NCBI GenBank assembly: GCA_903824725.1 | Contig: CAIJXU010000064.1 | Coordinates: forward strand, 186,001-250,000 | Origin: an uncultured Bacteroidota bacterium | GTDB lineage: Bacteria > Bacteroidota > Bacteroidia > Chitinophagales > Chitinophagaceae | Direction of reading: 5' to 3' | DNA: 64,000 nt | Shown: piece after piece, positions 3,633-52,173 of the stretch | Layout: every line of letters begins with the position of its first letter | Position numbering within the stretch: position 1 is the first letter of the stretch | Position numbers and translations under genes: made by a program | Notes under the pieces: model-generated | The model's input: only the letters and a program-made list of their open reading frames with translations | Told to the model about the DNA's origin: nothing | Databases searched by the model: none

Positions 3633-5441
3633 CTAATAAAATATTTCTAAATTTAATTTAGTTTTTAATTCTTGTACTAATGGATATTGCTCAGCAATGC
3701 GTTCAAATTTTTGCTTGCTGTTTAACCTTAAATGAAGTGGAACATCCTCTCTTTCGCCTGCTTCTACAAGTATGCTAAATTGAATGGCTCTATTTTGAAA
3801 AGTTTCCCAAATTTTTTCAAGTAAATTCATTCTCTCTTGTTCCACAAATTTTTGAGCAGTTAAAGCAGATACGCTTACAGTGAAATGTAATTCATCAAGA
3901 ATCTCTAATTGTGCTAATTTGAAAGTGCCTGCAGCCGAATGCTTTAAAGCGGTTTGGAGATAGAGGGTGTAGTCCTCCCAGCATTTTCTAAGGGCATCAA
4001 TTTTCAATGGGATGGCCTCTTTTACTTCTTCAATATTGTATTGGCTGCCATATTTATGCTGTAAGGCGGCAAGTAAATTTTTTTTATTACTGCTTTCTTG
4101 AGGAGTAGTGCTAGCTGTTGATGGGCTAGCAGGGGATGATTTGACTTCCTGAACGATAGCCTTTGCTGGTGAAGGTGTTGGAGCAGCAATCACTTTGACG
4201 ACAGGATCTGCAGTTTCAATAACTAATTTAGCCTGTTCATTCACCACCATTTTACCAAATGGAACTATACGTTTAGTTTTTATAGGATAATGTACATCAA
4301 CTAGTTTTTTTTTTACAAGTTGCCCCTCTTCCATACTCAATTCAATAGCTTGTTGTAAAAAATTAAGCTTTATAATAGCAAGCTCTACATGTAATCTTTT
4401 ATTACGAGCCATCTTAAATTGAATTTCAGACTCGTTTAAAATATTTAAGGCACTTACCATATAAGGGGTGCTTATTTTTTGCGCAGTCGTAATATATTGA
4501 TCACGCCATCCTTCGATAGACTCTAATAAATGCGCGCTTGCCGTATCCTTGCAAACCAATAGGTTTCTGATAAAGGCGGCAAATCCATATAATACCATAT
4601 CTCCCTCAAATCCTTTTTGATTGATTTCGTCATATAGGAGCATGGCACTTGTTAAATCCTGCTCCATTAAATGATTTAACAATTTAAAGTAGTAGGCCTC
4701 GTCTAAAATATTTAAATGCTCCAGTGTATTTTCATAAGTTAATGCACCATTTGAAAAACTTACAATTTTATCTAGAATACTTAAAGCATCACGCATACAA
4801 CCTTCGCTTTTTTGAGCAATGAGTTGAAGTGCATTTTTTTCTGCTTTAATTTTTTCTTTACTGACAATTTCCTCTAAGTGTAAAACAGTGTCATTGGAAT
4901 TAATGCGTCTGAAGTCAAAAATTTGACACCTACTTAATATGGTAGGAAGAATTTTATGTTTTTCGGTGGTGGCTAAAATAAAAATAGCGAAAGGTGGAGG
5001 CTCCTCTAATGTTTTCAAAAATGCATTAAAGGCACTTGAGCTTAACATGTGTACCTCATCCACAATATATATCTTGTATTTTCCAGCTTGAGGGGCAAAA
5101 CGAACCTGCTCCACTAAGGTTCTAATATCATCTACAGAATTATTACTAGCGGCATCTAATTCATGAATGTTTAAACTGGATCCTTTTTCAAAGGAGACGC
5201 AACTCTCACAAGTATTACAAGCTTCTCCTTCCTTAGTGATTTTAGTACAATTGATGGTTTTGGCTAAAATGCGCGCACAAGTTGTTTTACCCACACCCCT
5301 TGGTCCACAAAATAAAAAGGCATGTGCCAAATGATTGTTTAAAATGGAATTTTTTAAAGTCGTAGTAATATGCGACTGCCCCACCACGGTATTAAAGTTT
5401 TGGGGTCTGTATTTGCGGGCTGAAACAATAAAATTTTCCAT
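3633..5441 (-). CDS. dnaX: DNA polymerase III subunit gamma/tau
   Basis: YRPQNFNTVVGQSHI, GPRGVGKTTCARILAK, Cys4 zinc module, DEVHMLS, LEEPP; 602 aa. Confidence 0.97.
   Translation of the reverse strand: MENFIVSARKYRPQNFNTVVGQSHITTTLKNSILNNHLAHAFLFCGPRGVGKTTCARILAKTINCTKITKEGEACNTCESCVSFEKGSSLNIHELDAASNNSVDDIRTLVEQVRFAPQAGKYKIYIVDEVHMLSSSAFNAFLKTLEEPPPFAIFILATTEKHKILPTILSRCQIFDFRRINSNDTVLHLEEIVSKEKIKAEKNALQLIAQKSEGCMRDALSILDKIVSFSNGALTYENTLEHLNILDEAYYFKLLNHLMEQDLTSAMLLYDEINQKGFEGDMVLYGFAAFIRNLLVCKDTASAHLLESIEGWRDQYITTAQKISTPYMVSALNILNESEIQFKMARNKRLHVELAIIKLNFLQQAIELSMEEGQLVKKKLVDVHYPIKTKRIVPFGKMVVNEQAKLVIETADPVVKVIAAPTPSPAKAIVQEVKSSPASPSTASTTPQESSNKKNLLAALQHKYGSQYNIEEVKEAIPLKIDALRKCWEDYTLYLQTALKHSAAGTFKLAQLEILDELHFTVSVSALTAQKFVEQERMNLLEKIWETFQNRAIQFSILVEAGEREDVPLHLRLNSKQKFERIAEQYPLVQELKTKLNLEIFY
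4305..4314 (-). promoter_or_regulatory. dnaX: A10 homopolymer, candidate slippage/frameshift site within dnaX
   Basis: minus-strand CAA CTT GTA AAA AAA AAA CTA GTT GAT; one extra A gives AAA ACT AGT TGA, one missing A gives AAA AAC TAG. Confidence 0.65.
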
Positions 5442-30253: not shown

Positions 30254-30892
30254 ATGTCTAAAAAATTATTTTTCTTTTTTACATTGTTCATTATTCAAAC
30301 TAGCTACTCGCAAGTGGGCTCTTTCCAAAAAAAAATGGAAGAAGCCGTTGCCTTTTTTGATCAAGCAAAAACGCAGGATCAAACGACAGTTGCTTTTAGT
30401 AAAATGGAAGCATTGTATAAAATGGATCCTAGTCAGTGGCTGCCTGCTTATTATGCCACCTTAATTAAGGCGAGAATGAGTATTAAAAAAATGGGGAATC
30501 CTGATATGCTTGCTGATGAGGCTTTAGCTTGGTTGACGAAAACAAAAGCCCTACATAATAGCGATGAAGTAGCCTGTATCGAAAGTTTTGCCTATACTGC
30601 AAAAATGGCGGTGAACCCTACTTTCAGGTGGAAGAGTTATGAGAAAAGAATTAATAATCCATTGACTTTTGCATTAGGATTAAATAAAAATAATCCCCGA
30701 ATATATACACTTCAAGCAAGCCTTTTATATCGTATGCCAGGTTGGTTTGGAGGAGGTTGTAAGTCATCATTACCCTTAGCTCAAAAAGCTAAATTAATAT
30801 TTGATGCACAAAAAAATGATTTTACAGTAATGCCACATTGGGGAAGACCCATCATTAATGAAATTATGAATGGCTGCCCAGTATCAGAATAG
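30254..30892 (+). CDS. Secreted TPR-like hypothetical protein
   Basis: signal peptide MSKKLFFFFTLFIIQTSYSQ; helical repeats, 212 aa. Confidence 0.6.
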   Translation: MSKKLFFFFTLFIIQTSYSQVGSFQKKMEEAVAFFDQAKTQDQTTVAFSKMEALYKMDPSQWLPAYYATLIKARMSIKKMGNPDMLADEALAWLTKTKALHNSDEVACIESFAYTAKMAVNPTFRWKSYEKRINNPLTFALGLNKNNPRIYTLQASLLYRMPGWFGGGCKSSLPLAQKAKLIFDAQKNDFTVMPHWGRPIINEIMNGCPVSE

Positions 30893-50049: not shown

Positions 50050-52173
50050 CTATACTAGTTTTTTATTAAATAGCCTTAATGAATTGAGCGCTAATACCAC
50101 ATCACTTAATCCCATAATCAATGCGCCGTAGGTGGGTCCCCAAGTACCTAATAACCCAAGCGCTGCAACGGGGATGGCGATAATATTGTATGAGAATGCC
50201 CAAATTAAATTTTCCTTAATGGTTTCATAAGTTCTTTTTCCTAACCCTAATGACATAGGAAGATTTTTTAAGCCTTGGTTCATTAATATGACTTGTGCTG
50301 TTTGTATGGCTATATGAGAAGCATTACTTAAAGAAATACCAATAGTAGCTTTTGCCAATGCAGGTGCGTCGTTGATGCCATCCCCCACCATTGCAGTTGG
50401 ATATTTTTTTACAAATGCATCTAATTGTGTCAACTTATCCGATGGGCTTTGTTCTCCAATGATTTCTTGTATGCCTAAAGCTTTTCCAATTTTATCACAT
50501 TTAGATTGTCTATCGCCACTTAGTAAAATAGTATGCACCCCTTGACGGTGTAATATTTCTATGACTTGTTTGGCTTCAGGTCGGATTTCATCTTCTACAT
50601 CAATCCAACCTATGAGGGCATTGTTTTTTTGGATGTATATATTATGCCCATCTTCTATTTTTTGATCGGCAACTATCTTATAGGAGCCTGCCCAATATTG
50701 ATTTCCTTCTTTGTCTATTGCTTTAATTCCTAATCCTTTTACTTCTTCAATACTAGCCCATGCTTGCGCGCCACTTGATTTCCATTCGTTACTGATACAT
50801 TTTGCAATGGGGTGGTTTGAATACTTCTCTAATGAATACACTAATGATTTAAAATCATCTTCACTGGTCCCATCCAAAATTTTAAATTGGTGCATTGAAA
50901 AATGTCCGGTGGTTAAGGTACCTGTTTTATCAAAAACAACTTGGCGTATATCTTTAAAAGTTTCTAAGCTTTTAGCATTTTTAAATAAAACACCGTTGCG
51001 TGCGCCTCTTCCCAAACCAACTGCAATAGCCGCAGGAGTGGCTAACCCCATCGCGCAAGGACATGATATCACTAAAACAGCAATGGCCCTTAACATACTA
51101 CTACCAAAGCCGATATCTGTTAAAAAATAATTTCCAATTAAAGTCAGTACTGCTATACTTAATACGAGTGGAACAAATACAGCACTTATTTTATCTGCTA
51201 ATATTTGTACTGGTGGCTTTTCGCCTTGTGCGGCTTTGACCATTTTTAAAATATTAGCAAGTACCGTATCGTCGCCTACTGCTGTTACATAGGCTTTAAT
51301 AGTACCATCTTGAATGGTACTTCCTCCCAATAATAGATCATTTTTTTTTCGTTGAATGGGTTCGCTTTCGCCAGTGACGATCGATTCATTCACATTGGCT
51401 TCACCCCATAAAATTTTACTATCCATGGGGACCGTTTCACCTGCATTCACTAAAATTAAATCACCTACTTTTAAAGTTTGACTTTCAACATTAAAAATAA
51501 TTTCTTTATGATGTTCATCAAATACAATCATGTTGGCCATCACTTTTTGTGCGCGTACTAAATCCTTTAAGGCACGTTGCGTGGATTGTACTGAAGCATC
51601 TTCTAAATAATTACCAAAAAAGACTAAAGTGATAATAGTAGCAGTGGTTTCGTAATAAGCAAAAGCAATTCCTTGTCCTGATAAGGTTCCATATAAACTA
51701 TAACCAAAGGAGGATAATGCACCAATGGCAACTAGAACATTCATATTAGGTATTCCACTACGTATGCTATTCCATGCACTTTTTCCAAAATAACTCATAC
51801 CCACTATAAAAACAGGAACTGTAAATGCTAATTGTACATAGGTGTTCATCAACCAATGAATATGTATTCCTGGAATCATATGAAGTACCAATGGGAGCGT
51901 GAATAAAAAACTAAATAAAGATCGATCGGCATTATTATCCAGCCACTTTTTTTTGGGGCTAGGACCATCTTGGCCTCTCACTTTATATCCGAGTCCTTGT
52001 ATCCCTTTAATCAAAATTTCTTTGTTGATTTCATCGGGCTTTTCAAACTGCACTTCCCCTTCCATGAAATTTACTTTGGGTTCATCAATGCCTTTTGATT
52101 GTAAATATTTATGTATAGATAAGGCGCAATTGGTGCAACTCATCCCGTCGACTTTCCATTGAATTGATTCCAT
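50050..52173 (-). CDS. Heavy-metal (Cu+) P-type ATPase
   Basis: N-terminal HMA MSCTNC, CPC (SCPCAMGLATPAA), DKTGTLT, GDGINDAPAL. Confidence 0.95.
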   Translation of the reverse strand: MESIQWKVDGMSCTNCALSIHKYLQSKGIDEPKVNFMEGEVQFEKPDEINKEILIKGIQGLGYKVRGQDGPSPKKKWLDNNADRSLFSFLFTLPLVLHMIPGIHIHWLMNTYVQLAFTVPVFIVGMSYFGKSAWNSIRSGIPNMNVLVAIGALSSFGYSLYGTLSGQGIAFAYYETTATIITLVFFGNYLEDASVQSTQRALKDLVRAQKVMANMIVFDEHHKEIIFNVESQTLKVGDLILVNAGETVPMDSKILWGEANVNESIVTGESEPIQRKKNDLLLGGSTIQDGTIKAYVTAVGDDTVLANILKMVKAAQGEKPPVQILADKISAVFVPLVLSIAVLTLIGNYFLTDIGFGSSMLRAIAVLVISCPCAMGLATPAAIAVGLGRGARNGVLFKNAKSLETFKDIRQVVFDKTGTLTTGHFSMHQFKILDGTSEDDFKSLVYSLEKYSNHPIAKCISNEWKSSGAQAWASIEEVKGLGIKAIDKEGNQYWAGSYKIVADQKIEDGHNIYIQKNNALIGWIDVEDEIRPEAKQVIEILHRQGVHTILLSGDRQSKCDKIGKALGIQEIIGEQSPSDKLTQLDAFVKKYPTAMVGDGINDAPALAKATIGISLSNASHIAIQTAQVILMNQGLKNLPMSLGLGKRTYETIKENLIWAFSYNIIAIPVAALGLLGTWGPTYGALIMGLSDVVLALNSLRLFNKKLV

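Follow-up and report, generated by a model that had tools for sequence, protein, structure and literature searches.

The window, i.e. the whole 64-kb stretch of DNA analysed here, carries a dnaX gene on its minus strand (Table 1). The DnaX protein matches the Pfam families DNA_pol3_delta2/AAA, DNAX_ATPase_lid and DNA_pol3_gamma3, the last of which corresponds to domain III (residues 244–364). Its best structural relatives in a PDB search are E. coli gamma/tau (E 1e-67), and it is the product of the single gene of the host genome that passes the TIGR02397 cut-off. Around the run of interest the minus strand reads GAG GGG CAA CTT GTA AAA AAA AAA CTA GTT GAT. The ten A's take up the third position of codon 376 and all of codons 377–379 (of 602). 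They come just past domain III, which in Pfam reaches to residue 364, and this is where the first-pass annotation had placed them; the sequence, frames, stops and residue numbers that it gave agree with ours. It had also called this run the longest homopolymer noticed in a coding region, which holds for the entire window, whose remaining A/T runs of at least 9 are three 9-mers at positions 30327, 36871 and 51341.

Table 1. Features of the dnaX locus, in window coordinates.
Feature	Position	Strand	Basis or remark
dnaX, DNA polymerase III subunit tau, 602 aa, 68.1 kDa	3633..5441	-	ORF, Pfam, PDB, TIGR02397
Common N-terminal part, predicted gamma-like product of 379–381 aa depending on the slip; AAA+ core, lid, domain III	4305..5441	-	Computed from run and stops; Pfam limits
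Purine stretch GAAGAGGGG, proposed SD-like stimulator, probably not functional	4323..4331	-	Seen in the window, unconserved in congeners
Proposed A10 slippage run, GTA AAA AAA AAA, codons 376–379	4305..4314	-	Sequence and phylum survey
TAG, ending the +1 frame (reached by losing one A or gaining two)	4301..4303	-	1 nt beyond the run
TGA, stop of the -1 frame (one A inserted or -1 ribosomal shift)	4297..4299	-	5 nt beyond the run
Tau-only C-terminal region, absent from gamma	3633..4304	-	Rest of the ORF; homologous region in another frame in 45/46 two-ORF relatives

Both alternative frames terminate within 8 nt of the A10, and the position of the TGA is retained in nearly all congeners. With one extra A, or after a -1 shift, the computed product ends in VKKKTS and has 381 aa (43.0 kDa). 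One A lost or two gained would lead to an end in VKKN or KKKN, at 379–380 aa and 42.8–43.0 kDa, the lost A corresponding to 379 aa and 42.8 kDa. These frames confirm the KKKTS or KKN termini that had been proposed for a short DnaX form. In E. coli, the C-terminal region of tau contacts the polymerase and the helicase. A dnaX product of 379–381 aa is plausible as a clamp-loader subunit by analogy, because the solved clamp-loader structure 1jr3 contains an E. coli gamma cut down to a chain length of 373 residues.

Selective retention of the run and its stops in Bacteroidota

For the survey, whole genomes were scanned for dnaX at the level of genus, family, order, class and phylum, and the genes were then read from their loci. 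This gave 215 informative genes, and three loci cut by contig ends were left out of the sums. With the site defined as A9–A12 within codons 345–405 (window numbering), the run is present in 175 of the 215. AAG codons or missing stops in relatives had been named beforehand as evidence against a programmed site; the opposite was found, with A9 or A10 in 36/36 informative congeners. Runs of A9 or longer occur in 14/16 genes from other genera of the family, 56/62 from other families of the order, 28/28 for the sampled rest of the class and 41/73 for the other classes of the phylum. The length is A9 in 54 genes, A10 in 108, A11 in 12 and A12 in one; no gene has length 8, and four genes have length 7 in the site zone. 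Elsewhere in the 175 run-bearing genes there are just two runs of A≥9 in 299,770 nt.

Translation of the run yields 28 different peptide words (VKKK, EKKN, EKKS, KKKT, LKKN and others), and all three codon phases are used, so that it is the nucleotides that are conserved, and not the protein. Even GC-rich genes, with a third-position GC of up to 0.83, retain it. A synonymous null, in which amino acids were fixed and codons were drawn from each gene's own usage, gave an expectation of A≥9 in 65/175 genes (37% of sites on average). For the window gene alone the null probability is 0.57, and since this is not small the case rests on the comparison among relatives. The product of the null values, with each of 39 families contributing one, comes to about 1e-23, which is indicative and no formal test, as it was computed on run-bearing genes; sequences within a family are related, and p-values from pooled tests are therefore overstated.

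A further 80 named loci extend the sampling. Tau lies in the genome frame with A9–A11 in Chitinophaga, Longitalea, Ferruginibacter, Pedobacter and Mucilaginibacter, and likewise in Hymenobacter, Aureispira, Aquimarina, Aequorivita and Muricauda. The two-ORF form described below was seen in Flavobacterium, Myroides, Chryseobacterium, Sunxiuqinia and Crocinitomicaceae records. Among the same loci the run is missing from Bacteroides, Prevotella and several other Bacteroidales records, and six of these (L274, L281, L284, L292, L293 and L296, from Bacteroides, Bacteroidaceae and Prevotella) have no stretch of five or more A's in the 200 nt that follow domain III. From these sequences, the site looks to have been lost in the Bacteroides/Prevotella family, though kept by other Bacteroidales. 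In the genome survey it was found in 0/26 genes of eleven out-of-class families (f30, f31, f36, f38, f39, f42, f43, f45, f47, f51 and f53). Because of these absences, the run is not indispensable.

The stops beyond the run are also selectively retained. In the tau-in-frame genes (n = 129), a -1 stop lies within 12 nt in 95%, compared with 37% at control positions of the same genes, and a +1 stop lies within 20 nt in 85%, compared with 40%. Both stops are close (-1 within 15 nt, +1 within 20 nt) in 82% of these genes and in 16% of the controls, and by family medians both frames are closed in this manner in 25/31 families. In the window's own family, the codon that yields the TGA has T before GA in 42/49 genes, against a background of 27% for V/I/L codons.

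In 46 other genes, here called two-ORF genes, the genome frame closes 0–19 nt past the run, and only a change of frame would give tau. The frame of the tau C-terminus is -1 in 42 of them and +1 in four, and in 45/46 the downstream frame is homologous to the tau C-termini of full-length genes. On a quick dnaX tree of 123 genes there are at least 17 changes between the two-ORF and the tau-in-frame state, and several families contain both. Some groups are fixed as two-ORF, such as the Flavobacterium-like genus g34 of family f25 and most of f35. Many of the genomes are metagenome assemblies, where homopolymer errors can mimic two-ORF forms; these forms are present also in the closed single-contig genomes G116, G122 and G134.

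Differences of a single base in run length were observed in L031 (A9 vs A10), L209 (A12 vs A11) and L322 (A9 vs A10). Locus L031 (G025:C79) belongs to the window's genus, of which it is the sole two-ORF case: it has the same flanks as its A10 neighbours and a downstream frame intact over 220 codons, with gamma as the genome-frame product and tau requiring one inserted A. In L322, from Flavobacterium sp. YO12, the comparison is with congeners L321 and L325; tau lies in the +1 and not in the -1 frame, and could not be rescued by a -1 ribosomal shift.

Proposed polymerase slippage and alternative explanations

We propose that the A10 of dnaX is a selected site of transcriptional slippage, with a probability of roughly 0.8 on the comparative evidence. 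RNA polymerase copying the T10 template would stutter and produce dnaX mRNAs with ten A's or with A's gained or lost. Those with 10 or 10 ± 3 A's would be translated into full-length tau, and all other run lengths would lead to the nearby TGA or TAG and hence to the gamma-like subunit. This subunit would consist of the AAA+ core and the collar (domains I–III) and would be able to form clamp loaders, while lacking the tau C-terminus that tethers the polymerase. By the Thermus precedent, a sizeable fraction of slipped product is expected. The run, the stops, their selective retention and the relatives that need a frame change for tau are observed; that slippage takes place in this species, with whatever efficiency, and that gamma accumulates and has a cellular role is inferred from them. 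The programmed gamma subunit predicted in the first-pass annotation is well supported by the survey and by the prompt closure of the off-frames.

The same annotation had left open whether the event would be ribosomal or transcriptional, and the survey favours the latter and disfavours the E. coli type. A threshold of nine is that expected for the RNA–DNA hybrid of the polymerase, and a ribosomal slippery heptamer needs only seven. Slippage by RNA polymerase accounts for this length threshold, and also for both off-frames being closed, for tau being found in either of them, for the codon phase making no difference and for a conserved structure being absent. A large proportion of genomes bear signs of selection against runs of length 9 (PMC1088944).

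The main alternative is a -1 programmed ribosomal frameshift of the E. coli type, in which ribosomes would shift at A_AAA_AAA, stimulated by upstream purines and/or downstream structure, to make gamma. We regard it as unlikely. Every long A run does contain an in-phase A_AAA_AAA or A_AAA_AAG heptamer (in the window A_AAA_AAG in phase is not present, only A_AAA_AAA followed by C), and the -1 stop is the more tightly conserved of the two, but seven A's and a single stop would be enough for the ribosome, whereas the observed lengths start at nine, and the +1 frame is closed too. Tau sits in the +1 frame in four surveyed genes and four named records, and as these are out of its reach a -1 ribosomal shift is insufficient. 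Upstream SD-like 4-mers are about twofold enriched (61 observed vs 32 expected), for which reason a ribosomal contribution is kept in play. The purine stretch GAAGAGGGG, noted earlier as a possible stimulator, is indeed present, but is probably irrelevant in that role: any SD-like 4-mer within 18 nt was found in 10/36 congeners and is absent from 26/36, and Bacteroidia ribosomes sequester their anti-SD (PMC8710568), prfB frameshifting being nevertheless functional in Bacteroidia (PMC8710568). Downstream structure is unremarkable, with a mean z of -0.35 over 89 genes, and no stable stem-loop was found beyond the run in the window (z -0.88 for 85 nt, +0.3 for 60 nt). Of the two accessory elements, the downstream stem or pseudoknot was dropped since it gave no consistent signal in the window and the 89 genes, and the SD-like stimulator is a poor candidate, its enrichment being weak and the element unconserved. 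One gene of the same family does present the pattern of a ribosome-only site, namely L088 (G282; codon 372), which has A7G only, as CAA AAA AAG in precisely the phase of the E. coli site; its -1 stop is retained at 6 nt, and its +1 frame is open for 104 nt. A switch from polymerase slippage to ribosomal frameshifting is possible in this gene, judging from its sequence.

Two further explanations dispense with a regulated slip in the mRNA, and both appear highly improbable. The run could simply follow from the AT-rich genome and from the lysine-rich linker that comes after domain III, and yield no regulated product; the linker does contain lysine, most of the surveyed genomes are AT-rich and the synonymous null produces A≥9 at a good part of the sites. 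Against this, the run is seen in far more genes than that null expects, with the indicative family-wise product given above, and it stays while the encoded amino acids change. Off-frame stops are enriched in both frames, including the T that makes the TGA, and two-ORF relatives need a frame change to make tau at all. Protein-level constraint on KKK alone is ruled out by the variety of the encoded peptides, and chance is ruled out by the survey, although the window gene taken singly would permit it under the null. The least probable explanation is a DNA-level contingency (phase-variation) tract, where replication slippage would toggle cells between tau-in-frame and gamma-only alleles. The one-base length changes between relatives (L031, L209, L322) and the repeated flips of architecture are in its favour, but an allele without tau should be lethal, because the bacteria studied so far need the tau C-terminus to replicate, and whole groups are fixed as two-ORF, the single-contig genomes included.

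Known systems and significance

In E. coli dnaX, a -1 ribosomal frameshift occurs at A_AAA_AAG with an SD-like element and a stem-loop. The present site resembles it in the gene concerned, in a shift about two-thirds along, and in a similar short product ending just past the site; it differs in having no AAG, no conserved SD-like element and no significant stem, in a run longer than 7 and in the closure of both frames.

The closer likeness of transcriptional slippage is to Thermus thermophilus dnaX, where it takes place at A9 (Larsen et al. 2000, as described in PMC1088944 and PMC5009743) in a fraction of about 50% (PMC5009743). Shared with the window gene are tau in the genome frame, a sense-strand A run of at least 9, close stops in both other frames and a short product that ends at the run. 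Of the features of the Thermus type, a run of at least 9, close stops in both off-frames and retention independent of the protein were found here, and mRNAs of several run lengths together with a short DnaX protein are predicted. By the account in PMC1088944 the Thermus run lies seven-eighths along the gene, whereas the run in the window is at codon 377/602, directly after domain III. Slippage is proven in Thermus and presumed for the present gene.

In 2013, GeneTack predicted two-ORF dnaX in 12 genera (17 genes, nine of them A10) and also in Chlorobium and Chloroherpeton; the 17 were all -1 frameshifts (PMC3711429). These genes also have an A run after the clamp-loader domains and a frame change for one product, and slippage was proposed for them; they differ in needing the frame change for tau, which the window dnaX has in the genome frame. 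In the literature searched on dnaX frameshifting or slippage in Bacteroidetes or Flavobacterium, only the GeneTack paper and reviews were relevant. Slippage in Thermus dnaX and two-ORF dnaX genes (PMC3711429) are already known. Against that literature, it appears to be new that tau-in-frame genes retain the run nearly phylum-wide, that it lies right after domain III, that +1 two-ORF forms exist and that the two states switch often.

We lean towards the view that the making of gamma by slippage arose early in Bacteroidota dnaX and has mostly been kept, to provide a clamp-loader subunit shorter than tau that ends directly after domain III. As slippage yields all frames, the genome frame would have drifted freely, with at least 17 switches of the encoded product (tau or gamma) between genera. 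The retention of A9–A12 with closed off-frames over most of the phylum suggests that a short clamp-loader subunit is of value to these bacteria. The role of gamma has been debated since 1990, and in E. coli only tau is essential. If this view is true, a dnaX with two products would be common and not the exception that review PMC3290774 makes of it. According to that review, most bacteria are without dnaX frameshift signatures, and tau may be all that they make, a statement that would need amending. Many annotated 'short DnaX' genes of the phylum would also be mis-annotated, which flags a systematic problem, two-ORF dnaX being read as truncated. The natural variants in length and frame, even within one genus, are available for testing slippage in a cellular gene.

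Other long A runs are present in the same genome. Counts from a pattern search and 20 sampled regions put the A/T runs of 9 or longer at 64 in its 2.2 Mb, only three of them of length 10. The other two A10 runs (L231:1073 on C44 and L232:1141 on C91) lie inside ORFs close to their 5′ ends, at about codon 49 of 397 and at codon 4 of at least 388 (a glycosyltransferase-like ORF), and slippage at them would give early truncation of their proteins. The A9 at window positions 51341–51349 (minus strand) is located within an ORF for a copper-type P-type ATPase (707 aa, 50050–52173), 3′ of the GESEP motif. A programmed frameshift is known in E. coli copA, at another place in the gene than this A9.
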